DNA of 64,000 nucleotides, taken from contig CAMAUX010000009.1 of NCBI GenBank assembly GCA_945861435.1, positions 62,001-126,000 of the forward strand. Reading direction: 5' to 3'. The translations under genes and the position numbers were made by a program. This DNA comes from Chthoniobacter flavus (GTDB lineage Bacteria > Verrucomicrobiota > Verrucomicrobiia > Chthoniobacterales > Chthoniobacteraceae). A model generated the notes under the pieces. That model saw only the letters and a list, made by a program, of their open reading frames with translations. It did no database searches and was not told the DNA's origin. Positions within the stretch are counted from its first letter, which is position 1. Each line of letters opens with the position of its first letter. Shown piece by piece: positions 103-13,858 of this stretch.

Positions 103-1029
103 CTACAAAGGCGGAGGGGGCGCGTTTCCTGAAGAACCCCAGACGATCGGATACCCGGGCCGCTGCAGCTCAAACCCGCAGTCGAGTCCCATCTTCGTGG
201 CTTTCTCGCGAACCGCCCGGAAGACCTCAAAACTGTCGGGATACACGTACAGCACAATATAGTGATCCGACTTCGACAGCCCGCGCAGCATCGACTCGAC
301 CCTCGCTGCATCAGCGCTGGTGGTCCACCCCGCTTGCTCGATGGGGTTAGACTCCCGGCTGTCGCCCTCCTTGGCCACCCAGCGAATCGAAACCTCATTC
401 CGCCCGCCGCTAGGAAGGTCGAGTGGATAAACACGGTCGAACTTGCAGATGATGTTGAAGGGCCGTTTGGTCTGGGCTCGCTCCTTCGGAAACCGCAACG
501 CCACCGCGCGCGAGCCTGCCTCTTTCTGAATCATACTGCTGATTTCCTTCATCCGCCCCTCGATGCGAGCCAGCTCCTGCTCATACGCCCTGATCTCATT
601 GTTCACTTGCTGCATCTTGCGCTCCAGCGGCCGCAGCTGCTTACCAAGTTTCTCCTCTTCTGCGGAGTAATCGGTCACCACGTTCTTCGGATCACTCTCC
701 GCCTCCCGTTGCGCGCGTGCGCGCTCACCACGGGCCTTTGCCAGCGCCTCTTCCAATTTCCGCTTCTCCTCCAAAAGAGGATTCGAGTCCGGTGCGGGTG
801 CCGCTGCGGCCTGCTCGATCAGCCTTCGGGCATTCGCCAGATCCTCCTCGGCCACCGCCACCCTTCGCTGCAGCATCTCCCCGCCCGCCTGATCCCCCGG
901 GGAATCCTGCTTTCCCGTCTGCGCCATCAGCGCCACCAAAATCGCGATGAGCAGAATCGCTCCAAACATGCTGCACACCGTGTCCAGAAGGAGCTCAAGA
1001 CTGTCACTTCCGTGATGCCTCTTCTTCAT
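103..1029 (-). CDS. ExbD/MotB-like membrane protein, paralogue B of the GTPase operon
   Basis: A 308-residue protein. Residues about 10-34 form one membrane helix that begins with an acidic LLLDTVCSMFG segment, the position where ExbD/TolR/MotB proteins carry their proton-binding Asp. A long charged coiled coil follows (about 45-170). The C-terminal domain contains YIVLYVYPDSFEVF and a KATKMGLDCGFEL segment, like the small alpha/beta extracytoplasmic domain of ExbD. The same layout and C-terminal pattern occur in the gene just upstream, so the two are paralogues. The start ATG overlaps the upstream stop by four bases (ATGA), which suggests translational coupling. The gene is the last of the operon inside the window. 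I infer that it is a stator-like partner of the ExbB-like subunit. Its exact family name is not certain. Confidence 0.72.
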   Translation of the reverse strand: MKKRHHGSDSLELLLDTVCSMFGAILLIAILVALMAQTGKQDSPGDQAGGEMLQRRVAVAEEDLANARRLIEQAAAAPAPDSNPLLEEKRKLEEALAKARGERARAQREAESDPKNVVTDYSAEEEKLGKQLRPLERKMQQVNNEIRAYEQELARIEGRMKEISSMIQKEAGSRAVALRFPKERAQTKRPFNIICKFDRVYPLDLPSGGRNEVSIRWVAKEGDSRESNPIEQAGWTTSADAARVESMLRGLSKSDHYIVLYVYPDSFEVFRAVREKATKMGLDCGFELQRPGYPIVWGSSGNAPPPPL

Positions 1030-1880
1030 GGGGCCTTGAGCTGCACGGACACCTCCTCCCCGACCGCGTCGTAACCAATCTCAAACCCAGCGCTTCTCGC
1101 GCGGTTGGTGAGCTCATCAAAGTGGAAGCAGCCCGAGGGCTTGAAATAAAAGACGATATACTGCTCCAGCTTCGCATACCGCGAGAGCGCATCCCCAAAC
1201 TTCCCCACCAGACCACTGCCGACAAGCTCCTGCTTCTCCGCACTCCCCAGCCTCTGAAGCGTGATCGTACCTCCCGAAACCACCGCCAGCACGGGCTCCT
1301 TCGTCGTGTTCGTCCGGTCCGGAATCAACCACAGCTCATTGCGCTTCTTCTGCTCCGCAAGCAACTGACTCTCCTTCTCCTTCAACTGCTCCTCAACACG
1401 CGCCACCTGCGCCCGCCGGCTCGCCGCCTCCTTCTCCGCATCCGCAATCTGCGCCGTCACCCTCGCGATGCGCGCCTTCGTCTTATCCAGCGACTCCTGC
1501 AGGATCGCCGCACCCCCCTTGCTCCATTGCGCTCCGGAAACCGTCCCTGCGGGCGCAGGCCCCTTCGGCATCCCCGCAAGTTCTGCACGCAGCCACTCGA
1601 CCCGGCCGCGGACGGCGGAGGGATCGTCTCCGGCGGATTTTTCGGCGGCATCGCTCAGCGTGGCATTGGCCTGCGCGAGTGCGTCGAGGAGTTGCTCCAG
1701 CTTTCTGGCAAGGGCGCCGCTGTCGCCCCCTCCGGAGTTCTTGAGAAGGGGATCCCCCATGTCGAGCGCGAGCAGCATCACGATCGTGATGATCACCGCC
1801 ATCGCAGAGGTGATGATGTCTTGGAACGCAAAGAACGGACTCACACCGCCCGCCCCGCCGCGCTGGAATCTGCCCTTCAT
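1026..1880 (-). CDS. ExbD/MotB-like membrane protein, paralogue A of the GTPase operon
   Basis: A 284-residue protein. The N-terminus SPFFAFQDIITSAMAVII leads into one transmembrane helix (about residues 13-40) with an Asp at its start and another at its end. A coiled coil rich in Glu, Arg, Lys and Ala follows (about 55-175). The C-terminal domain contains EQYIVFYFKPSGCFHFDEL and ARSAGFEIGYDAV, which matches the downstream paralogue position by position. This is the architecture of proton-channel partners (ExbD, TolR, MotB, ZorB), but with an unusually long coiled coil between membrane and periplasmic domain. The gene begins 13 bases after the ExbB-like gene, so the two are very likely co-translated. 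The function as an ion-channel partner is inferred from this pairing. Confidence 0.72.
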   Translation of the reverse strand: MKGRFQRGGAGGVSPFFAFQDIITSAMAVIITIVMLLALDMGDPLLKNSGGGDSGALARKLEQLLDALAQANATLSDAAEKSAGDDPSAVRGRVEWLRAELAGMPKGPAPAGTVSGAQWSKGGAAILQESLDKTKARIARVTAQIADAEKEAASRRAQVARVEEQLKEKESQLLAEQKKRNELWLIPDRTNTTKEPVLAVVSGGTITLQRLGSAEKQELVGSGLVGKFGDALSRYAKLEQYIVFYFKPSGCFHFDELTNRARSAGFEIGYDAVGEEVSVQLKAP

Positions 1881-1893
1881 CGGAGAAAAACCA

Positions 1894-2778
1894 TCACAGC
1901 AGCTTCAGCTTCGAGACGACGTGCGCATCGCAGTAATCCTTGCACTCGTCGAGGAACTCCCCCTCCCGCGCCTGCAGGAAGGAAAGCAGCACTTGGATGA
2001 TCACCGCGCACACCAGCGCCACCAGCGTCGTCTCAAACTTCGTCGCAAGACCCGCCGTCACCGCCTGCAAACCCTCGCGAATCGCCGTGAGATCCCCACC
2101 CGAACGCAGCGTCACCCCCAGCGCACCGATGGCCGAGCGCAGACCGATCACCGTCCCGATGAATCCCAGAACCGGGATCACCCATAGAAAGCTGTGGATC
2201 AGCCCGTAGCTGGAAGCCACCTGCTCCTCATCGCTGTCCGACTGATTGCGCAGGATCGTGGAAACATCGCCGATCTGCCCGATGTTCCCGAGGTTCGAGA
2301 GCCCGCGCTCAATCCGGTTCAGCAGCAGGAAGTGGCGCGTGTCGTCCACCAACCCGCGCATCCGCTCCAGCACGGCCCGCGCAGTCTCCCGGTTCAGCAC
2401 AAAATCGGGCTGCTGCGGCACGGCCGCGATCCGCAACGCACGGCGCTGCACGCCAAGCTTCGCATTCTTGAAGTACAGCATCGCCAGCGCCCAAAAGAAA
2501 AAAACCATCGTCGCATAGGGCGCCACACCACGCTCAAGGAACATGTCGCACACCGGCTGCAACCCAGCCCACCGCATCCGAACCCCGAGCACCGCCCCGA
2601 AGAAAAGCGCCGTCGCAAGAACCGCCACGCAAAATGACAGCAGCCGGTTCGCGCAGGTAAAGCGCCCACCACGAAACCCAAGGCGCTGCTCAGGATCCGC
2701 CCGCGCCCAGCACAGGTGAAAGTCGCCGGTTCCAGACGCGGCTTGTTCGGGGACGGCGGAGAAGGGAAGTGCAGCCAT
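1894..2778 (-). CDS. MotA/TolQ/ExbB-family proton-channel subunit
   Basis: A 294-residue membrane protein. Predicted helices lie at about 47-66, 86-104, 192-215 and 248-270. The C-terminal half has the MotA/TolQ/ExbB signature region: SSYGLIHSFLWVIPVLGFIG followed by TVIGLRSAIGAL, and later LQAVTAGLATKFETTLVALV. In characterised relatives this domain forms a pentamer around two ExbD/MotB helices and converts proton flux into movement of a partner. Two ExbD-like genes follow directly, which supports that role. The gene sits inside a GTPase/GAP1/PrsW operon, not beside tonB, tol-pal or flagellar genes, so iron uptake or motility is unlikely. The first 45 residues are poorly conserved-looking and the true start could be internal. 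Confidence 0.8.
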   Translation of the reverse strand: MAALPFSAVPEQAASGTGDFHLCWARADPEQRLGFRGGRFTCANRLLSFCVAVLATALFFGAVLGVRMRWAGLQPVCDMFLERGVAPYATMVFFFWALAMLYFKNAKLGVQRRALRIAAVPQQPDFVLNRETARAVLERMRGLVDDTRHFLLLNRIERGLSNLGNIGQIGDVSTILRNQSDSDEEQVASSYGLIHSFLWVIPVLGFIGTVIGLRSAIGALGVTLRSGGDLTAIREGLQAVTAGLATKFETTLVALVCAVIIQVLLSFLQAREGEFLDECKDYCDAHVVSKLKLL

Positions 2779-2816
2779 GGTTCAGCAGGGGTTGGGGTTT
2801 AGGGACACAGGAAAAT

Positions 2817-4337
2817 TCACCGGGTAGGGACGGGGGCAGGAACAACACGGGCGACAGCGCCGCGCGCGATCGCAATCTCGCGGAGCCCTTCGCGGATCAG
2901 CCCGATGACAATGACCCACGCGGCGAACCCCACAAAGATCATGAACTTCCATGCCCCGCCCTGAAGCGCGTTCCAGAGCGCATGCAGCGCCATCGCGGCG
3001 ATGAACGGGCCCAGAAACTTTTTGCTCATCAAAATATCCAGCACGAAGCCGTGCTCCCGCTTCGCCCTCCAAATCCCCGCCCCCACAATCGCGGTCCACA
3101 CCGCATGGGAACCAAGGGGCTCGATGATCCCCCGCACAAAAAGGGACTGAAACATCCCCACGGCGGCCGCCACAAAAGCCTCCTCCACCGCCTGCCCGCT
3201 CGCCCCGGCGACCATGGCTGCGGTGGCCTTTTGAACCCCGCCCAGCAACTCCTCAAACGCATATCCCGCCGTCTCGAACACAGCGAATCCCGTCCCCACA
3301 GCCGCCCCGAATAACAGTCCGTTCAACGTCCAGTTGTAACGGGGTTTGTTCACCATCCAGATCAGGACCAGCATCTTCGCGGGCTCCTCAATCAACCCGG
3401 CAATCCATCCCAGCCGCTCCCCGTCAGCCGATTGAAGACCCAGCACCGAGACCACGAACTTCAGGATGTGCGGGTGCAGCAGGACCGTGAAGAGCAGCGA
3501 GATCGTCCCTCCCACCACCACCAGCTTGAGCACCAGATAAAGCGAAACGTTGCGCGGCTTGTTGACCTCAAAGAACAACACAAGGATCGCCAGCGGCGTC
3601 GCAAGCGCCCCCAGCACAATCAGCCCAGGAATGAACTTGTCGTTCCCACCCTTCGCCGTCGCGTAGCACAACACCCCAAACGCCGTCAGCGCCAGCCCAA
3701 GGATCCGCACAAACATCCACGGCTGCGGAAATGCCGCGCTCACCTCCGAAAGCCGCGGCGTCGTCGCCGTCGATCCACTCGCCAACAACAACTCCGTCTC
3801 CTCCGCCGGGTGCCGCCGGAACACCTGCGAAAACGTCTCCCAAAAACGAAACCCACCCGCCGAATCCACCCCCGCAAGACCCGACACCGCATCCGCCAGC
3901 GTCCCCACCCCAAGCCCCCCTCCCAGCGCCGGTTCCGCCACCGGATCCGCAACCCCATGGGGCGCCACCCCGTCCGCACCCGCACGCACTTCCTCTCGTT
4001 GCGACGGCCGCTCCGCCACAGCCTCCCCCCGGGTTCCAACCACCCCTCCCACACGCATCTGCTCCACAAGACCGCGCTCCCTCGCCCGAGCCGCCTCCAA
4101 CTGCTCCTCATACCCCCTCTGCATCCGCTGCTCCCGCGCCCGGACCTCGCGCACAGCGCGGTCATCCCCCTGCATCCGGTCAACAAACTCACCCGCCGAT
4201 ATCCACCCCACGCTGGTCTCGATCTGATGCATCCTGCTGACCTCTCCAGACGCCAGCTTCTCCCGAATCTGTGCGGCCGTGAAACGGCCCAGATCCATCC
4301 CCTTCCAAGATAAAGGATACAAAGAGTCCGCGCTCAT
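2817..4337 (-). CDS. GYF_2-PrsW-family intramembrane protease
   Basis: A 506-residue protein with two parts. Residues 1-55 resemble the GYF_2 domain (LYPLSWKGMDLGRFTAAQIR, then a conserved W at about 45). After a charged linker (about 60-200) come roughly eight membrane helices of the PrsW family. The four expected motifs are visible: EEPAK at about 317, FETAGYAFE at about 354, a membrane His at 411 (SHAVWTA) and a His at 452 (ALHALWNAL). PrsW of Bacillus cuts the anti-sigma factor RsiW at site 1. Here the neighbours are a GTPase and a channel-like module, so the substrate is more likely a membrane component of the operon. The start overlaps the upstream stop by four bases. Confidence 0.85.
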   Translation of the reverse strand: MSADSLYPLSWKGMDLGRFTAAQIREKLASGEVSRMHQIETSVGWISAGEFVDRMQGDDRAVREVRAREQRMQRGYEEQLEAARARERGLVEQMRVGGVVGTRGEAVAERPSQREEVRAGADGVAPHGVADPVAEPALGGGLGVGTLADAVSGLAGVDSAGGFRFWETFSQVFRRHPAEETELLLASGSTATTPRLSEVSAAFPQPWMFVRILGLALTAFGVLCYATAKGGNDKFIPGLIVLGALATPLAILVLFFEVNKPRNVSLYLVLKLVVVGGTISLLFTVLLHPHILKFVVSVLGLQSADGERLGWIAGLIEEPAKMLVLIWMVNKPRYNWTLNGLLFGAAVGTGFAVFETAGYAFEELLGGVQKATAAMVAGASGQAVEEAFVAAAVGMFQSLFVRGIIEPLGSHAVWTAIVGAGIWRAKREHGFVLDILMSKKFLGPFIAAMALHALWNALQGGAWKFMIFVGFAAWVIVIGLIREGLREIAIARGAVARVVPAPVPTR

Positions 4338-7300
4338 GGGACGGAGAGGAACGGAATCACAGGCGCCGCGGCCGAGGGGGGCACGGTGTCCTGCTGCTTG
4401 GTCTGCCCGAATGTCCGCCTGTCCAGCGGAACAAAGAAGAGCGGACTGAACACCCGGACACCCTTCACTTCACCTCCCGGACGCACTCCCACCGCCGCTG
4501 TGTTTACCCCCTCACCCACCCCCCAGAGCGCATCCGCCACGGCCGCCTCCGGCAGCAACTGCGCCACACCCGCCTCGTCCACAAACCCGCCATAGCGCAG
4601 CCCCGCGCCAATCACCGCCCGCACAATGTCCCGGTGCACCTGCGCTTCCTGCAGGTATTTGCGCGAGGCGACTTTCTTGAAAAACGCACCATAACATTCA
4701 TTCAAGGAGGCGCTCCGCACCGGAATCATCCAGTCCGCCGACGACGGCCGTTCCCGCTGCACAAGCCGGTCAAAAACCAAAAGGTCGCGCCGCAGCTGCG
4801 CGCTGTGCTGCAGCCCCCACTCGTACGGACGAATCTTCAGCAATCCCATCAGCTGCTGCCACAGGACCGCACGCACCGCAGCCGATGTGCCCGACATCCC
4901 GCTCAACACTTCAAAATAATGCATCAGCGAACGCTCGTACACCTGCCCGTTGGCATCCGTCATCCTGTTCAACTGCAACGCCGCAAGCGCCACCATCGCC
5001 TCCCCGGGCTTCCTGTCCTTCAGCTCATCCCCATCCCGACCCGGATCGGACGGCGGCGTCAACCGGTCATCCATAAAAAGCGCACTCGTGGATTTCGCAT
5101 CGGGGATGAAAAACGACCCCTTCCACGGCCCGCGACTCTCGCCGTTGATCATCCCGCCAAGAGCCTGCGGCACCCCACGACTGTACGCCGTCACCGTGGT
5201 CGCGTTGCCAGACTTCCGCCTCACCAGCTTGTGCACATAAACCTCATCCAAGTTCTTGTCCTGCCGGATACGCAGCAGCGCCGACACCTCCGGATCCAGC
5301 ACCTTCTGCGGCAGAAACCGCCCCCCGCCCAGATCCCCCTTCGCCGCCACCCACGCCTCCGCATCGTCGGGCAGCAGCAGCTTCGGAAGAAATCCCGCGA
5401 CCTCGGGAAAAACCGGCAGCAGCGTGCGCGCATTCACCACCGCCTTCGCCCGGACAAGACGCGATTTTTCAAAGCGCCCAAGCGCCTCCCGGTACGCCTC
5501 CAAGGTCCTTGCATCCCGCATCGCCGTGCTGCCGGCGGCGACCTGTTCAAGCTCCTGCACAAACACGTCCACGCGCTGACGCGCCGTGCGGATCCGTGTC
5601 TGGAGGGCGGCGGGGATTGCGAGCGCCTCGATCGGCGGCTCCAGCCGGCCCTCCAATCCGCGAAGCCTTGGCTGAATCGCCTCGAGCGCCGCACGCAACG
5701 CATCCTCCTCGCGCTCAAACCCAAGACCCTCCGCCACCATCTGGTCCACCTCCTCCACCTCCTTGGAAGCCTGCTGTGCAAGCACCTCCCGCATCGCTGT
5801 GAAGTGCGCGTCCAAACGGTTGCGCAACACCGTCAACCGCCCGTCCGGAGCCGCACGCAGCCCCGGCGCGACCGCCTCCACCAGCTCCACGCAGAGCTTG
5901 AGCTGGGCCGCCCACTGCGACGGCGACTGCACACCAAGATCACCCCCCACCGCCTCCTCCATCTTCCCCAATTCCGCCACCGCCTGCCCAAGCTTGGCGC
6001 GCTCACCAGCCACCCATGCCGCCGCCTCCTCCACCGCCACACGCATCGTCGGCCGCTCCGCAACACCGTCCGCACGCAGCTTCTCCACAAGCTTCTCCGC
6101 CCCATCCACCGCGCGATTCGCACGCAGCTCCTCAAGGCGCCCGCGCTCGTCCCGTTCCCGATAAAAACGCACGGCAAAAAAGATGCCCGCCGACAAAAGA
6201 CCCGCCACCAAAACCACCGTCGACACCGCCCGCAGACGCTTCTGCCGGTGGAGACGCCCAATTTCCAAACGCACCGAATCCGATGCCCTCCGCACCCGCC
6301 CCACCAGCTCCTCCGGAACAGGGCGTCCCCCATGCTCCAACACCCCCCACATCCGCCCCATCTCCGTCAGCATCTCCTCCAGTTCCGCCACCTCGAGACT
6401 CGACCTCGCCAGCAGCCGGTTCTCGCTCTGCTCCACAAACGCCCGCAGCAACTGCACCTGCGCCTCAAACTGACTCTGCGCACGCTCCTCCCGCATCCGC
6501 CCAAGCGCCCATGCCCGGCTCTCCTCACACAAGCCGGTCGCAGCCGGCGGCAGCGTGATGCGGTGCCCAGCCCGCAGCGCCTCAATCCGCTCCACGGTCC
6601 GCAACGCCTCATTCCACAAGCCCGCGCGACGATCATGCGGAAGCCCTTCCAACAACTGCCCGCACAACGTCTCCGCAGCCGCGCGCTCCACACCGCGCCT
6701 CAAATCGGCCCCCCGCTGATAATCGGCGTTTTCCAAATACTGCGCCGGTGTCCCAAGCCGCTCCACCTCCTCCACCGCACGAAGCACCGCATCCTCCCCA
6801 TCCTTCCCATCCTTTGCGGACTCCCCAAGGGCCGTGTGCAAAACCCCGAGCGCCTCCCGAAACAACTTCGCCTCAAGACGCCGGAGTTCCGCCGCGGCGT
6901 TGGTGTCCGCCGGGTTCAGGCGCACAATGCTGCGCACGATCCGCAGCGCCCCCACATCATCGCGCGAACTCACCGCCGCGCGGTATTCTTTGTATAGCGG
7001 ATGATTCGGCGCGATGCCCTTGGCATAAAGCGTATTGAGCATCTGCACCGCCTTCGGATCGAACGCTGGCGGAACCGGCAGTCCGAGTCCCTGGCATTTG
7101 CCCACCCACTGGGGCGCCTCGGCGAAGCTCAGCGCCGAGATCACGTCCATGAGCGCGGGCTCCACCTCCGCCACCTGCAGTGCCTGCAATTCGCTCCCCT
7201 TGGCCAACATCTCCGCGCACTGCTCCAACCGCAGCACCGCCTCCCGCCCCAGTCGCGCATATTCCGCAGCAAGCCCCGCCACATCGCCCCGCCCCTCAAG

Positions 7301-7345
7301 CGCCTCACGCACCTGCCTTACCAACTTTGTCAGGGCGTAGTTCAC
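4334..7345 (-). CDS. Large single-pass coiled-coil protein of the GTPase operon
   Basis: A 1003-residue protein of no family I recognise. Residues 1-370 are mostly helical, with TPR-like stretches, and probably cytoplasmic. One membrane helix lies at about 373-393 (STVVLVAGLLSAGIFFAV). The next 250 or so residues are rich in Glu, Ala, Arg and Leu and look coiled-coil. The last third (about 680-1003) is more globular and contains RIRQDKNLDEVYVHKLV and MNDRL-like acidic loops. Its ends overlap the GAP1 gene and the PrsW gene by four bases each, so it is an integral operon member. With one central helix and large domains on both sides it could carry a signal across the membrane between the GTPase side and the channel side. 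That role is inference. Confidence 0.7.
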   Translation of the reverse strand: MNYALTKLVRQVREALEGRGDVAGLAAEYARLGREAVLRLEQCAEMLAKGSELQALQVAEVEPALMDVISALSFAEAPQWVGKCQGLGLPVPPAFDPKAVQMLNTLYAKGIAPNHPLYKEYRAAVSSRDDVGALRIVRSIVRLNPADTNAAAELRRLEAKLFREALGVLHTALGESAKDGKDGEDAVLRAVEEVERLGTPAQYLENADYQRGADLRRGVERAAAETLCGQLLEGLPHDRRAGLWNEALRTVERIEALRAGHRITLPPAATGLCEESRAWALGRMREERAQSQFEAQVQLLRAFVEQSENRLLARSSLEVAELEEMLTEMGRMWGVLEHGGRPVPEELVGRVRRASDSVRLEIGRLHRQKRLRAVSTVVLVAGLLSAGIFFAVRFYRERDERGRLEELRANRAVDGAEKLVEKLRADGVAERPTMRVAVEEAAAWVAGERAKLGQAVAELGKMEEAVGGDLGVQSPSQWAAQLKLCVELVEAVAPGLRAAPDGRLTVLRNRLDAHFTAMREVLAQQASKEVEEVDQMVAEGLGFEREEDALRAALEAIQPRLRGLEGRLEPPIEALAIPAALQTRIRTARQRVDVFVQELEQVAAGSTAMRDARTLEAYREALGRFEKSRLVRAKAVVNARTLLPVFPEVAGFLPKLLLPDDAEAWVAAKGDLGGGRFLPQKVLDPEVSALLRIRQDKNLDEVYVHKLVRRKSGNATTVTAYSRGVPQALGGMINGESRGPWKGSFFIPDAKSTSALFMDDRLTPPSDPGRDGDELKDRKPGEAMVALAALQLNRMTDANGQVYERSLMHYFEVLSGMSGTSAAVRAVLWQQLMGLLKIRPYEWGLQHSAQLRRDLLVFDRLVQRERPSSADWMIPVRSASLNECYGAFFKKVASRKYLQEAQVHRDIVRAVIGAGLRYGGFVDEAGVAQLLPEAAVADALWGVGEGVNTAAVGVRPGGEVKGVRVFSPLFFVPLDRRTFGQTKQQDTVPPSAAAPVIPFLSVP

Positions 7346-10300
7346 AGTCTCTTCTTGAAGTAAAGAACCCTAGGGAGCGGGGGCGCGCCGTTCTTCGGTT
7401 TCTTGGAAAACACAACCTCATAGTCGATCTGAGGCGGTTGCGCAGTTGGCGACGCCACAGGAGGCAAGAGAGCCGCAGCAGGACGCGGCGGCACCGATTT
7501 CGATTTTTCAATTAAGTGCTTCAACTTATTCGTGAGCGTTTCTTTTGCGCGATCAAACGCATCTTTCTTACCTGGGACGTTATTGTCGTTGCCGTTCAAC
7601 GCCACGGCTTTGGCTGCTTCAAGGGCCTTTTCCAAACACACGCGCAGCTTCTGATCATCATTTCCGGGACAGCTCTTCAACTCCGAACCCGCCGCACCCA
7701 ACTCCTCTCCGCCCGACCCCGCAGCCGTTCCGAGGAGCTCCGCAAACAAACCCACCACCTCCTGCGCTGTCTTCAGATTATTGCCGACTCCCCACTTCCC
7801 TTTTTTATTATTTTTCTTAGAGAAATTACCATCAAGCTTATCGGCGTCCGTATTAAAATACCCCTTCCATTCCCTCGCCTTCCCTCCGTCTGGCATAAAT
7901 AACTGGTGATACTCGTCCGGAGTTGCGGGATTGGGAGTTGGCGGGTTGGCCGGCGTCGTTTGCTGGCTGTCAACAACAGCCTCAGGAATGTTAGCAATCC
8001 ATTTGGCACCGTCCTTTTTGGTTAAGGGGGCTTCCTTTCCATTAAAACGGACCGTCCATACCACATCCGCCAGATAGTCGGGCGGATTAAAGTGTTCGAG
8101 GATCAGTTCTTGGCTCTCGCGCCGCGCCCGAACCTCCTCAGCAACGGCCTTCGGCGCAACCTGGGAAGTTTCCGCCCGCTGTCCCGACTTGGAAGCCACT
8201 AATGGTGGAAACACATGCACCACGAGATGTTTGTGCCCGACTTTATCCTCAACCTCAATGTCCCCATAATCGGTGGATGCAGGCCCGCCATCCCCCCTTG
8301 TAAGTTTGTTCCCTTCTCCGAGTTTGAAAAACGGCTTCAGGTCTAAGCGAGCCTCTGCGATCCGCTCCCCACCCACACCTTCGAGCGGCGGCCAGTAGAT
8401 CAGTTCTTTCCCATCCGATGGACCTTTATTATCCGCCCATTTGAACTTCACCCCCTCCCGCTCTTTGATCGGCGTGAGTTCCTTGATCTCCATGGCAGCA
8501 AGATCCTCCCACCCCACCGCAAAAACTTCGGTGGTATTGAGGATATTCGACGGGCCATCAGCATTAGCTTTCTTCGCTTTTTCCTCCGCAGCGGTCTTCT
8601 CCAAACGCTCTTTTCTTTCTTTCTCCTCTTTCTTTTTATTCGCCGCCCGCTTCTCTTCCAACCACTCAGGCAGCGGCGCCGCCACATCCGCCACCTTCGT
8701 CCCTCCCCTTTCAATCCCCCTCCATGCCTCAACCTGCGCCCTCAGCTTCTTGACCGTCACCATCTCCTGAAATTTCGGCTCCTTCGGCTCCATTCCCGAT
8801 TTGTACCGGCCCGTCTCCTCTTCAATCTCCTTCAGCTTCTTCTCAAAATGCTCCGGCCTCAGTCCTGCGGCCTTTTCCCCGTCCTTCAAATCCTTCTCTA
8901 GCCCGTCCAACGCGACCTCCACCCACCACTTCTGAAATGCACGCGCCACACTTCTGTACTCGCTGAAATCAGCGCTCCACTCATTCTCCCACTTCCACCA
9001 ATCAGCGGGAGGCACGCCCTGCGCAGCATCCGCGGGATGCTCCTTAAACCCTGCAAGCTTCCGAAGGAGTGCGATCTCCCTCCGCGGACGCTGCATCTCG
9101 TCGTCGCCCTCCGGAATTCCATCGAACTTCCCGCTGAATCGACGATCCAATTCCTCGTGCGTCACCAACTCAAAACCGCCGTCTTTTTTGAGTTGCTCAT
9201 CTAATTCTTTCACCTGACTCAGGACCTCTTCTTTCCGGCTCTTAAGCTCCTCCCTCTCTTTATCGCGCCTCACCCCCTCTTGATATTCCTTCCACCCAAA
9301 CACCCCCCCTCCCGCCAGCACCAAGGCCAAGACCGCCATGCCCAGTGCCCACCACTGCCGGCTCCGTCCCGCACCCCGCCGCTCCGCCCCCGTGCTGAAA
9401 TCCATCCGCGCTTCCGCACGGAGCGCAGGCATCGCGGCGGAACCTGTGGACTTCCCAACCCCCGCGTCTTCCTCCACCGGATACGCACGCATGGGCGCCT
9501 GCCAGCCCGCCCTTTCCGCCTCCTCGTAGGACTCCTCGTAGGACGCCTCCTCGCGCCCCCAGGACGCTCCGGCTTCGGAGAAAGGATGCTCCTCGGGCGC
9601 CTCTGCAACGGGCACCTCCGGCAACCGGTGCGGCGCTGTGAGATCCAGCACCGGCAGCGCATCGGAATAGTCGCGCACCGGAGATCCCGCCTCCACTCCG
9701 AGCCATGACAAGGAGCCCCTTTCGTCGCTGGGCTGGAGCGATGTCGTGAAGCTCACACCCCACCCGCGACCCGGATGCAGACTCAGCGCATCGGCCAGCA
9801 GACCAAGCGACGTCAACCGATCGGGAAGCACCAGCCAGCCCCGCCGCGCCACATCGCCGCTGACCAGCAGCCACGCCTTCATCCCATCCCCGCAGAACCG
9901 CTCCCAATGCACTCCGGCAGCCGAACCCACCGCGGGAAAACCGCCCAGCGAGACGGTCTCCGCCCCCTCCAACCAGAGCGGCAGCTGATCCCAGCGCGGA
10001 AGCCACGCCATCCCCAGCAGCACATCCGCCGAGCTGCACGCAAGGCCCGCCACCTCGTGCTCCTCCGCAATCAGATGGTGCGCCACATGATTGGTCCTGC
10101 CCGTGTAATCCGCTCCCGCGTCCCGGATGCACGAAAGCACGTGATAAGACCGCCCCCCTTCCACAACCACCCGGTGCGCACTCACCACACGATCCGGATC
10201 CAAACCGGGTTGCCGCGAAAACTGGCTGAACCGCTCCACCGCCGCCACCACCATCGGCGGCACCTCGCGGTGACGCGCCACCGTCCCAAACCCGCTCCGC

Positions 10301-10350
10301 CCAGCCTCCAAGAGCCGCGGCGCACTGGTGTATACAAGTTGCCAGGCCAT
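7342..10350 (-). CDS. GAP1-type GTPase-associated protein with central membrane helix
   Basis: A 1002-residue protein. The N-terminus (LVYTSAPRLLEAGRSGFGTV, then a GADYTGRTNHVAHHL block at about 79-93) matches what I know of the GAP1-N domain of GTPase-associated protein 1, described in predicted GTPase-centred conflict systems. An acidic, Glu/Ala-rich linker (about 245-325) leads to one membrane helix at about 333-352. A long Lys/Glu coiled coil follows, then a low-complexity C-terminal half that is much richer in Lys and Asn. The segment 7500-8700 is visibly less GC-rich than its surroundings. The gene starts three bases after the GTPase stop and overlaps the next gene by four, as expected of a GTPase partner. 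The N-terminal assignment is from recognition, not from a search. Confidence 0.75.
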   Translation of the reverse strand: MAWQLVYTSAPRLLEAGRSGFGTVARHREVPPMVVAAVERFSQFSRQPGLDPDRVVSAHRVVVEGGRSYHVLSCIRDAGADYTGRTNHVAHHLIAEEHEVAGLACSSADVLLGMAWLPRWDQLPLWLEGAETVSLGGFPAVGSAAGVHWERFCGDGMKAWLLVSGDVARRGWLVLPDRLTSLGLLADALSLHPGRGWGVSFTTSLQPSDERGSLSWLGVEAGSPVRDYSDALPVLDLTAPHRLPEVPVAEAPEEHPFSEAGASWGREEASYEESYEEAERAGWQAPMRAYPVEEDAGVGKSTGSAAMPALRAEARMDFSTGAERRGAGRSRQWWALGMAVLALVLAGGGVFGWKEYQEGVRRDKEREELKSRKEEVLSQVKELDEQLKKDGGFELVTHEELDRRFSGKFDGIPEGDDEMQRPRREIALLRKLAGFKEHPADAAQGVPPADWWKWENEWSADFSEYRSVARAFQKWWVEVALDGLEKDLKDGEKAAGLRPEHFEKKLKEIEEETGRYKSGMEPKEPKFQEMVTVKKLRAQVEAWRGIERGGTKVADVAAPLPEWLEEKRAANKKKEEKERKERLEKTAAEEKAKKANADGPSNILNTTEVFAVGWEDLAAMEIKELTPIKEREGVKFKWADNKGPSDGKELIYWPPLEGVGGERIAEARLDLKPFFKLGEGNKLTRGDGGPASTDYGDIEVEDKVGHKHLVVHVFPPLVASKSGQRAETSQVAPKAVAEEVRARRESQELILEHFNPPDYLADVVWTVRFNGKEAPLTKKDGAKWIANIPEAVVDSQQTTPANPPTPNPATPDEYHQLFMPDGGKAREWKGYFNTDADKLDGNFSKKNNKKGKWGVGNNLKTAQEVVGLFAELLGTAAGSGGEELGAAGSELKSCPGNDDQKLRVCLEKALEAAKAVALNGNDNNVPGKKDAFDRAKETLTNKLKHLIEKSKSVPPRPAAALLPPVASPTAQPPQIDYEVVFSKKPKNGAPPLPRVLYFKKRL

Positions 10351-10353
10351 GGA

Positions 10354-12147
10354 TCAGGAAGGGTGATGGGTTCCCACCAATCCGGGCGTCACCCGCGAAA
10401 GCATCCACAGCGTGGGCACATCCACATACTTGGGCGCCACACGCGCAGGGTCGGGGCCAATCATCCGATTGCCCCTCGCATCCGCAAACTGCACCGGCGC
10501 ACTCCCCAGCGGACTGATGGCAAAGTAACAGACATCCTCGGAGATGGCCTCCGCATTGGCCACAATGGCCGGAACGATCCCCATCAACAGCGTCCGGATT
10601 CTCGCGGAGTTGCGGCGCACCGCCCCTGCATCGAGCGCTCCGGTACGGAGGACGGGCTCCAGCGGCTCAGAGCCGAGCAAATGCCCCCATGCGTCCAGCT
10701 TCCCCACCATCATCGCGAGGGGCGTGCGAATCCTGTCGCGGGCCCGCAATCCCAGGATGTTTTTGATGCGCACCTCCGTCTCCGCAAGAATCACATCCTG
10801 CTGATCGGTCCGGTTCAGACCCAGCTGCGGATCCTCCCCGCCGGCCAGGCGCCTCCGGAACTCAATGTTATAGAGCGGATCGAACAGGAAAAAGATCCCC
10901 GACGCAGCCGCGATGTGCTGTGCGCCCGGCGAATCCGCACTGTTGCTGTTGGGTTCAAAATGCTCGCCCGCGTTGTCGTAAAACACGATCGCCGAGTCGC
11001 TCTGCGGACGGCCCGCCACGGAGAGGTTGAAGATGAAGGGCCGCGGCAGCGCCACCTTGCGCCCAAGGCGCGGAAGCACCTCGTACATCCCCCCCTCCAA
11101 CTCCGTCTTCGCAAGCATCGCCTCCGCAGGCGTCGCAGCCGAAAAAAGCTGGTTCTTCATCGCGTTCAGCAGCGCGTTCGCCGACGGATCCGCATCCCGG
11201 AAAATCACCCCGAAATGTTCGAAGAGCGAATTCTGCAACACCTTCACCAGCACGCTCAGGTAATAGCTCTTGCCGCTCGAAGGCGCTCCCACAATGGAAA
11301 AGATGAAATTGGGCAGGTCCAGAAAACCCTGCGGCAGACGGCGCCGGCAGTGCGGGCACGCGAGGTCGGGAGCTGAAATCCCCATCGCATCCAGAGCCTG
11401 GCCGCGGTCGTTGAAGCGCGTCGCATAAAAACGCTGCATCTCCGAAGTCCCCAGCAGCGGATCCCCGCGCAGCGAAGCATGCACCGCCACGTTCATCACA
11501 TCGCCACGGTCAAACCGCAGCCAGCACACCGGACACGTGAACTCCCCATGCTCGCCCGTGAGCGCCTCCAACGCACCACCCGCCGCCTCCGCTTCCACCG
11601 GAACCGGTGGAGGGCCAGCCGCCGGCCGCCCGCGTCCACCCGGCAGCAACGGCAGGATGTGCTCCACATAAAACCCCATGCTCGTGAGCCCCTGACACGC
11701 AAGGATCAGCCCCACCCCCTGCCCGGGCAGGGACCGCAGATGATCCCCCACCTCCCCCAATGCAAAGGGCCCCGTCACCGCCTGCGTCGCCTTCTGGTAA
11801 GTAAACCACTGGCTCCCGTCCATCCTCTGCAACCACTGCTCAATCTGTGGCGCCCACCGCAGCACCATGCAGCGACTGCCCACGATCAGCGTGTGCTCTT
11901 CATTGGGCGAAATCTCGCCACCCGCGAACGCCATCCCATCCAGAAGAACCTCCACCACCCCGGGAGCCGATGTCAGAAAGTAACTCCCGTTCCGCTGCTG
12001 GATCACGCAGTGCTGCCGCGCCACCCCGTCCTCAGGAATCCGAAGATCGCATCCGGCCGCGGACCCGATCACAAACGGCGTCTTGCTCACAACCACCGCA
12101 CGCCCCTCGAAACAGTCATAAACGCCTAGTTTCGCTATATTAGTCAT
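10354..12147 (-). CDS. FHA/GYF-like/zinc-ribbon GTPase (DO-GTPase2-like)
   Basis: The first gene of the operon (597 residues from the chosen start). Domains in order: an FHA domain at about 8-97 (FVIGSAAGCDLRI, then GVARQHCVI), a GYF_2-like segment at about 112-160 (WFTYQKA, GPFALGEV), two zinc-ribbon knuckles CPVC (205) and CPHC (264), then a GTPase domain. The GTPase has a P-loop GAPSSGKS at about 287, a DNAG switch-II motif at about 391 and GKLD at about 482, equivalent to the base-recognition motif. This fits the TRAFAC-like double-zinc-ribbon GTPases that accompany GAP1. FHA domains bind phosphothreonine, so a phosphorylation signal may feed in. ATG at 12147 was chosen because it lies just before the FHA domain; ATG 12177 and GTG 12186 are also in frame. 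Confidence 0.82.
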   Translation of the reverse strand: MTNIAKLGVYDCFEGRAVVVSKTPFVIGSAAGCDLRIPEDGVARQHCVIQQRNGSYFLTSAPGVVEVLLDGMAFAGGEISPNEEHTLIVGSRCMVLRWAPQIEQWLQRMDGSQWFTYQKATQAVTGPFALGEVGDHLRSLPGQGVGLILACQGLTSMGFYVEHILPLLPGGRGRPAAGPPPVPVEAEAAGGALEALTGEHGEFTCPVCWLRFDRGDVMNVAVHASLRGDPLLGTSEMQRFYATRFNDRGQALDAMGISAPDLACPHCRRRLPQGFLDLPNFIFSIVGAPSSGKSYYLSVLVKVLQNSLFEHFGVIFRDADPSANALLNAMKNQLFSAATPAEAMLAKTELEGGMYEVLPRLGRKVALPRPFIFNLSVAGRPQSDSAIVFYDNAGEHFEPNSNSADSPGAQHIAAASGIFFLFDPLYNIEFRRRLAGGEDPQLGLNRTDQQDVILAETEVRIKNILGLRARDRIRTPLAMMVGKLDAWGHLLGSEPLEPVLRTGALDAGAVRRNSARIRTLLMGIVPAIVANAEAISEDVCYFAISPLGSAPVQFADARGNRMIGPDPARVAPKYVDVPTLWMLSRVTPGLVGTHHPS

Positions 12148-12616: not shown

Positions 12617-13738
12617 CTACTTCATTAGATACGCCCCACAACTCTCCCGCACCATCACGTGCGGGGTCAGCAACATGCTGCGCGCAGGCAGCGACGGCAC
12701 CGCCATACGCTCCCTCATCGCGTGAAAAGCCGTCAACGCAATGTCCCGGCACGGCTGCTGCACCGTCGTCAGCGGCACCGTCAGCAACGTCGCAAAACGC
12801 ACGTCGTCAAACCCCACCAACCGCAGATCCCGCGGCACCCGCACTCCCTGCCGTGTCAGCGTCTGCAACAACTGCGCCGCCGTGTGGTCATTGGCGCAGA
12901 TCACCGCATCGTACGGCCGACCCGCACTCAACCTCCTTACAAACTTCGCATCCCCAGGATCCCCCTCGTGAAAAAAGTCGCGCCCCACCGCCACCCGGTG
13001 CGCCAGCATCGCCGCACGCGCCCCCGCCTGCCGCGCATCCACCGTGCTCGCTGAAAAAGGCCGGGCCACGAAAGCCAGCTTCTGCAGCCCCAGCTTCAGA
13101 AGATGCTCCGCCAGCAAATACCCGCCGGCAAAGTTGTCGATGCCCACGAGGTCAAAATTGCTGCGCTTCGGGAACGGGCACACGTCCCGGTCCAGCAACA
13201 CCACCGGAATCCCTGCATGGCTGAGCTTCTCCGTGATCCGCCGGTTGGCAGCCTCATTGTCCCCCGCGTGCTCAAACGGCGCAAAAAACACCCCCGACAC
13301 TCCACGGGTGATATACCGCGCGCAGAGCTCCTCCGCCTCCCCAATGCTCATGCTCGCACCCTCCATCGGCCCCGCGCTGCCCCCCCAGTGCATCCCCAGC
13401 TCATGCACCCGCGCAAGACTCGCCAGCTCCCCGCAGATCACATCAAAAATCTCCACCTGCCCGAGACCGGGCACGATCAACCCCAGCTGACGCACCCCCC
13501 GTTCGCCCTGCGCCGCACCGCGCTCCCGCCGCAAATAGGTGCCCGAACCCGCACGCCGCTCCAGCAACCCCTGCAGCTTCAGCTCCTGCAAAGCCCGCGC
13601 CACCGTCGGCCGCGATGCCCCGAAACGCTTCACCAACTGCGCCTCACTCGGCAGCCGCGCCGCATGATCGTAATCCCCCGCAAGAATCTCCGAGAGCAGC
13701 TCCTGCTGGATTTTCAGATGGAGAGGTTGGTGTTTCAT
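12617..13738 (-). CDS. GntR/LacI-type carbohydrate-responsive transcription regulator
   Basis: A 373-residue protein from the ATG at 13738, chosen because it sits directly before the helix-turn-helix; a longer frame to 13828 lacks similarity. Residues 5-70 are a GntR winged helix (LPSEAQLVKRFGASRPTVAR, then LLERRAGSGTYL). Residues 85-370 are a LacI-type periplasmic-binding-protein fold (LGLIVPGLGQVEIF, AVICANDHTAAQLL, RLVGFDDVRFA). This hybrid, as in AraR, senses a sugar and represses a neighbouring operon. It is divergent from the sugar-transport operon starting at 13859, with candidate operator repeats between the two, so it probably represses that operon until its substrate arrives. Confidence 0.88.
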   Translation of the reverse strand: MKHQPLHLKIQQELLSEILAGDYDHAARLPSEAQLVKRFGASRPTVARALQELKLQGLLERRAGSGTYLRRERGAAQGERGVRQLGLIVPGLGQVEIFDVICGELASLARVHELGMHWGGSAGPMEGASMSIGEAEELCARYITRGVSGVFFAPFEHAGDNEAANRRITEKLSHAGIPVVLLDRDVCPFPKRSNFDLVGIDNFAGGYLLAEHLLKLGLQKLAFVARPFSASTVDARQAGARAAMLAHRVAVGRDFFHEGDPGDAKFVRRLSAGRPYDAVICANDHTAAQLLQTLTRQGVRVPRDLRLVGFDDVRFATLLTVPLTTVQQPCRDIALTAFHAMRERMAVPSLPARSMLLTPHVMVRESCGAYLMK

Positions 13739-13770
13739 GAAGCAAAACCCGTCCTTACAGGTCCAGATCC

Positions 13771-13806
13771 TGTCATGGCAAGTTTTCGCCTGATTGTCAT
13801 GCCAAC
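13771..13806. promoter_or_regulatory. Candidate operator repeats between regulator and sugar operon
   Basis: TGTCATGGCAA (13771-13781) and TGTCATGCCAA (13795-13805) are near-identical direct repeats 24 bases apart. Their TGGCA and TGCCA cores also form an inverted repeat. They lie in the 120-bp divergent spacer, 33 bases upstream of the regulator start codon. The position and symmetry fit binding by a dimeric GntR/LacI-type protein. Confidence 0.45.
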
Positions 13807-13858
13807 ACTTCCCTCCCGGCACAGACACCCGCTATCCTCCGCCCATCCACCCCCCTCC

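Follow-up and report, generated by a model that had tools for sequence, protein, structure and literature searches.

Why would a bacterium encode a GTPase, a GAP1 protein and the subunits of a putative ion-driven motor side by side? This question is raised by seven genes of Chthoniobacter flavus (Verrucomicrobiota) that occupy positions 103-12147 of the 64,000-nucleotide stretch analyzed here (the window; positions 62001-126000 of contig 9, CAMAUX010000009.1, in a source genome of 5.35 Mb and 105 contigs). A preliminary description made from the sequence alone had seen in them a candidate membrane conflict system, and our calls of open reading frames (ORFs) agree with the layout that it gave, that is, seven genes on one strand with 4-base overlaps or gaps of 3-38 bases. 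The comparative data assembled below lead us to lean, if only slightly, towards an ion-driven machine that is gated by a GTPase and reaches through the inner membrane and the periplasm, resembling the Agl gliding motor of Myxococcus xanthus placed on a switch of the DO-GTPase/GAP1-N2 type. Its predicted parts form one conserved unit composed of a soluble DO-GTPase, two single-pass membrane proteins, a MotA-like subunit, and two ExbD-like subunits with an aspartate in the membrane.

Conservation of the gene set

The association of a GTPase with a proton-channel module in one operon, already proposed in the preliminary description, is supported. In a sample of 388 genomes of the phylum, drawn evenly rather than exhaustively, GAP1-N2 is found in 33 of the 35 genomes that encode a close relative of the operon's ExbB-like protein compared to 72/388 overall (hypergeometric P 2e-25), and in nearly all of these 33 genomes the two genes share a contig and are about 10 kb or less apart. 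The source genome itself encodes a single GAP1-N2 protein in a genome-wide profile search, which is the product of gene 2 of the operon. When 84,980 species genomes were scanned with the ExbB profile, 510 relatives were obtained, and the best 80 loci, picked by ExbB similarity, belong to Verrucomicrobiota, Planctomycetota, Thermodesulfobacteriota, and Lentisphaerota. GTPase and GAP1 genes are present in 44 and the gene for a coiled-coil protein in 45 of the 47 loci with at least 9 kb of upstream sequence, while two ExbD-like genes were found in 61/66 loci. The order GTPase, GAP1, coiled coil, optional adaptor, ExbB, D1, D2 recurs in 69 of the 74 complete loci, a count that includes a slight overlap between two samples (L073/L129 and L076/L170 look like identical loci). 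Two halves of the operon are divergent in L118 and convergent in L125 yet still adjoin each other, so that linkage outlasts operon order. The ExbB tree shows 7 changes of phylum label versus 24.5 after shuffling, with a few cross-phylum placements, and close relatives have common synteny. Judged from these comparisons, the module is a real, old, and conserved unit across three or more phyla (Verrucomicrobiota with Lentisphaerota, Planctomycetota, and Thermodesulfobacteriota).

Some loci have features of their own. Several of those from Desulfamplus are incomplete or dispersed: L145 and L166 show no ExbD gene within 10 kb, L161 and L162 have a single one, and the two of L160 lie about 4 kb downstream. 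Genes with a vWA motif are found at 13 loci, mostly directly beside the operon (L076, L077, L079, L080, L088, L089, L096, L097, L105, L133, L140, L146, and L170), and are reminiscent of extracellular vWA proteins known from other GAP1-N2 systems.

Components of the putative switch and motor

Most family assignments of the preliminary description stand, with FHA, GAP1-N2, PrsW, and MotA_ExbB recognized by Pfam. In the gene 1 protein, the FHA domain passes its cut-off and DO-GTPase2 scores 26.0 bits, just below the cut-off of 27. All 79 homologues share C218, C221, C277, C280, G300, G305-K306-S307, D404..G407-E408, and K496..D498, which include a P-loop GKS, a DxxGE motif (D404-x-x-G407-E408) with a glutamate in the Walker B region, and KxD; the zinc cysteines form two CxxC pairs that are split rather than belonging to two separate ribbons. 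The GYF_2 domains that had been expected fall under the Pfam thresholds in the window proteins (genes 1 and 4), but relatives pass (9 of 41 GTPase/GAP1 homologues, scanned as one set, and 39 of 76 gene 4 homologues).

Gene 2 encodes a GAP1-N2 domain (PF20013; 67 bits versus a cut-off of 24) followed by a membrane helix and, beyond it, a large ectodomain, and its product is thus predicted to be a single-pass membrane protein (transmembrane (TM) segments of all proteins were called by a simple hydropathy scan). GAP1-M was matched in 15 of the 41 GTPase/GAP1 homologues, with no match in the window protein at an expect value (E) of 1. None of the 41 proteins matched GAP1-C, and the C-terminal part of the gene 2 product consists of the TM helix and ectodomain instead. 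The ectodomain is the fastest-evolving part of the system, with 57% identity among close relatives compared to 80-90% for the GTPase, the ExbB-like protein, and the cytoplasmic part of GAP1, the GTPase reaching 90%, and a nonsynonymous rate (dN) of 0.33 versus 0.05 for the GTPase.

Pfam recognizes nothing in the gene 3 product of the window, and across 25 members of its family it yields only scattered weak matches. A single TM helix near residue 350-400 is present in 95/96 homologues, and the N-terminal flank of this helix is the more positive one in 89/94, which places the N-side in the cytoplasm. Its AlphaFold2 (AF2) model has a mean predicted local distance difference test score (pLDDT) of 78 and a predicted template modeling score (pTM) of 0.39, and Foldseek found no known fold at E <= 0.001.

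Gene 4 carries a PrsW domain (PF13367, 82 bits) with its motifs (EExxK, FAxxE, HxxW) present as EEPAK at residue 317, FAVFE at 351, HAVW at 411, and HALW at 452. Among the 76 gene 4 homologues, which were assigned from their sequences and Pfam, the tails are RDD (12), DUF4190 (11), trypsin-like (8), PrsW (7), TM2 (3), and DUF805 (2) besides single cases of rhomboid, CD225, and vWA, and in 17 loci gene 4 was not detected, the order being GTPase-GAP1-coiled coil-ExbB-D-D. The product of gene 4 is thus best described as a putative GYF adaptor with an exchangeable tail, and PrsW is not part of the core. This diversity matches the remark in PMC7159879 that GYF proteins of planctomycetes occur as fusions with trypsin or with a "TM-rich region".

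The channel subunit is encoded by gene 5 (MotA_ExbB, PF01618; 36.8 bits versus a cut-off of 22.9), a protein of 294 residues that ends 26 residues past the last of four TM segments. P202, G205, G208, T209, T241, T250, T251, and Q262 are invariant in 29 homologues, and these Pro, Gly, and Thr residues are predicted to line the channel. Genes 6 and 7 are mutually homologous (hhalign 99.2%) and keep an aspartate in the membrane, namely Asp21 of D1 in 33/33 and Asp16 of D2 in 32/33 homologues, the latter within the family motif LLLDTxCNxFGG. In the AF2 model of gene 6, the C-terminal alpha/beta outer domain is well ordered (pLDDT about 90-98). We call both proteins ExbD/MotB-like because of their position, the conserved membrane aspartate, and a weak match to the TolR fold (see below); sequence searches of the PDB with the profiles of the ExbB-like and both ExbD-like proteins returned only weak TolQ matches or coiled-coil noise. 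As in ExbBD-TonB and TolQR-TolA, the operon combines a PF01618 channel subunit with a membrane aspartate, a possible TolR-like periplasmic fold, and a bitopic partner, but its ExbB-like protein has four TM segments instead of three, both D proteins contain a coiled-coil insert, and TonB, TolB, and Pal are missing from the operon. Linkage to a Ton or Tol system, which would have spoken against the preliminary description, was not found, and most of its profile assignments and the co-occurrence of the genes held up.

A sister motor of three genes without a GTPase occurs in eight genomes, including the source genome (L192:7445-11268 on contig 44, and L193-L199 elsewhere; 38 long-ExbB matches were counted in the phylum sample). 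It comprises an ExbB with an N-terminal zinc ribbon plus a D1-like and a D2-like coiled-coil subunit, the same one-plus-two layout as in the operon, and D1 and D2 of the two motors each align best with their own counterpart. The membrane aspartate of D2 is kept in 8/8 sister motors while D1 has serine there in 6/8, which makes D1 homodimers hard to reconcile and favors a D1/D2 pair as one axle.

GTPase-centric DO-GTPase/GAP1-N2 systems were described by Burroughs et al. 2020 (PMC7159879), and the operon has in common with them the glutamate of DxxGE, the N-terminal zinc ribbon, an adjoining GAP1-N2, membrane components, and GYF proteins. Unlike them, it has no detected GAP1-C domain or FNIII protein (a Pfam scan found no FNIII repeats in the seven operon proteins or the adjoining genes scanned), and it adds the 1000-aa single-pass protein and the motor of ExbB and two ExbD-like subunits, neither of which is named in the main text of that article. 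For a validated DO-GTPase/GAP1 system, our literature search yielded this 2020 prediction and one passing mention.

In layout, the operon resembles the gliding motor AglRQS-MglA/MglB-Glt of M. xanthus, in which AglR works with AglQ and AglS, each having a conserved aspartate (PMC9389320), the motor is bound by the GTPase MglA (PMC9120999), and GltG is an FHA protein (PMC3169522). Both systems have one MotA/TolQ-like subunit with two TM-aspartate subunits, control by a GTPase (predicted in the operon), and FHA-bearing and bitopic envelope partners. Differences are that MglA is a small Ras-like GTPase unlike the DO-GTPase of the operon, that AglQ and AglS match Pfam ExbD while D1 and D2 do not, and that the Agl system has neither GAP1 nor a PrsW slot.

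In the mechanism that we propose, the fast-evolving ectodomain of GAP1 would sense an event in the envelope, and the state of the GTPase, relayed by GAP1 together with the coiled-coil protein's cytoplasmic part, would switch the motor. Five ExbB-like subunits may enclose an axle made of D1 paired with D2 and conduct protons, and the outer part of the coiled-coil protein (about 600 residues) could transmit force or signal toward the cell wall, a role played elsewhere by TonB, TolA, or GltG/GltJ. The GYF adaptor might recruit its tail as an output, for example PrsW to cut a membrane protein. We infer rotation of the motor, proton conduction, and the response to the GTPase from these likenesses.

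Layout and boundaries of the operon

The seven ORFs (Table 1) follow each other with spacings of 3, -4, -4, 38, 13, and -4 bases from gene 1 to gene 7. The preliminary description had suspected an effector gene beyond the left edge of the window, but the neighbor found there is a sulfatase-esterase gene that is convergent with the operon and ends about 67 bases before the stop codon of gene 7; the operon therefore ends at gene 7, with no effector concealed past the edge. A 996-aa ORF on the minus strand left of the window was considered as an eighth, effector gene and rejected, as it has no Pfam match and runs antisense to the sulfatase-esterase. Given its neighbors on both sides, the operon is complete in the source genome. 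Upstream on the same strand, 431 bases from the operon, lies a GntR/LacI-type regulator (12617-13828) that shows no sign of controlling it.

Table 1. Genes of the operon, with positions in the window.
Gene	Product	Position	Strand	Basis and remarks
1	Soluble FHA - GYF-like - split zinc-ribbon - putative DO-GTPase	10354..12147	minus	Start ATG 12147, frame open to possible GTG 12186; Pfam and invariant motifs
2	GAP1-N2 protein, one TM helix (334-352), fast-evolving ectodomain	7342..10350	minus	Pfam, hydropathy, dN
3	1003-aa helical/coiled-coil protein, one TM helix (374-392), N-side cytoplasmic	4334..7345	minus	TM and charge counts
4	GYF-like adaptor whose exchangeable tail is a PrsW intramembrane protease	2817..4337	minus	PF13367, motifs, slot diversity
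5	MotA/TolQ/ExbB-like channel subunit, four TM segments	1894..2778	minus	PF01618, invariant residues, TM count
6	ExbD-like 1 (D1), one TM with Asp21, coiled coil, alpha/beta periplasmic domain	1026..1880	minus	Asp conservation, AF2
7	ExbD-like 2 (D2), one TM with Asp16, coiled coil, periplasmic domain	103..1029	minus	Asp conservation, homology to gene 6

Possible roles: envelope machine, conflict system, or protease

Several results weigh against a GTPase-gated motor as the function of the operon. Neither D protein matches any Pfam family above cut-off, including ExbD (PF02472), and hhalign detected no homology to an alignment of five ordinary ExbDs from the same genome (1.9% and 0.3% for D1 and D2). 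Foldseek places TolR (5by4) at rank 3 for gene 6 (prob 1.00, TMt 0.49, E 8e-3), a weak match given that unrelated folds score alike. The orientation of GAP1 is backed moderately, with the charge rule met in 58/84 homologues, and its ectodomain shows no positive selection despite its fast rate, with the ratio of dN to the synonymous rate (dN/dS) being < 1. Finally, five loci (L106, L107, L109-L111) have the core of GTPase, GAP1, and coiled-coil protein without ExbB/D; the switch therefore does not require the motor.

What such a machine would be for divides our expectations. It may serve, like AglRQS-MglA-Glt or Tol-Pal, as a force generator for surface behavior, polarity, or envelope upkeep, which we hold as a tentative minority view. 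The one-plus-two motor layout, GTPase control, and common FHA, GYF, and zinc-ribbon parts point in this direction together with the long single-pass periplasmic proteins, and DO-GTPases elsewhere have been connected to membrane stress (PMC11237479). The motor-free cores further adjoin, by eye, apparent yidC, rnpA, and yebC (L110, L111) or pilM-like genes (L109). However, no outer-membrane partner, TonB box, or adhesin is found in the operon, and the distribution in the phylum is patchy (35/388 genomes). That same patchiness would fit an anti-phage conflict system akin to Zorya, in which phage damage to the envelope is sensed and the GTPase frees the motor or protease so that ion leak or proteolysis arrests or kills the infected cell. 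We consider this slightly less likely than the envelope role, although the DO-GTPase/GAP1-N2 systems, enriched in multicellular bacteria, have been predicted to act in biological conflicts (PMC7159879), the GAP1 ectodomain evolves fast, and the gene 4 slot accepts proteolytic tails. The parallel to Zorya drawn in the preliminary description holds for the small operon, the MotA-like ion motor, and a weak local match of gene 5 to ZorA3 models (E 2e-7), but not for the rest: there is no long cytoplasmic ZorA tail, no OmpA-type domain was matched in genes 6 and 7 (nor is one listed for 22 gene 6 homologues), two D subunits replace one, and a GTPase is present. Nucleases, helicases, and toxins are absent from the operon; PADLOC finds no ZorC/D or ZorE in the seven proteins, next to which lie only the sulfatase-esterase and the GntR-type regulator. 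The genomic setting is also not that of a defense island, since 116 flanking genes hold few PADLOC families and no restriction cluster among those listed, a weak sign as these flanks were sampled without a matched control set. No close ExbB relative was found on the phages, viral contigs, or plasmids searched (distant ExbBs occur on plasmids only), and the synteny common to close relatives and an ExbB tree that largely follows phyla likewise argue against a conflict role.

The preliminary description had also counted PrsW among the core parts, and the operon could in principle be read as GTPase-controlled regulated proteolysis centered on gene 4 with ExbB/D as passengers. The intact PrsW motifs are in line with this idea, but with PrsW in only 7/76 gene 4 homologues, other tails in its place, and the loci in which gene 4 was not detected, the comparative data largely refute it, and we regard it as very improbable.

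Returning to the GTPase-gated motor, no description of its pairing of a GTPase switch with a two-axle proton motor was found in the literature searched, in agreement with the preliminary description, which knew of no such system; the figures and data files of PMC7159879, outside this search, might list ExbB/D. A broader view, to which we give somewhat less than an even chance, is that rotary ion motors with an obligatory D1+D2 axle form a widespread class, part of which came to be controlled by a DO-GTPase/GAP1 switch whose GYF-linked outputs are exchangeable; this would be a GTPase-gated trans-envelope machine of a hitherto undescribed kind. It is an open question whether AglQ pairs with AglS or each of them with itself (PMC9389320), and natural motors in which one axle paralogue lacks the aspartate make this type of question testable. 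If our proposal is true, the predicted GAP1-N2 systems would gain a concrete output, and a GTPase switch would be tied directly to a proton-driven motor in several phyla for which no good model of envelope mechanics or of immunity exists.

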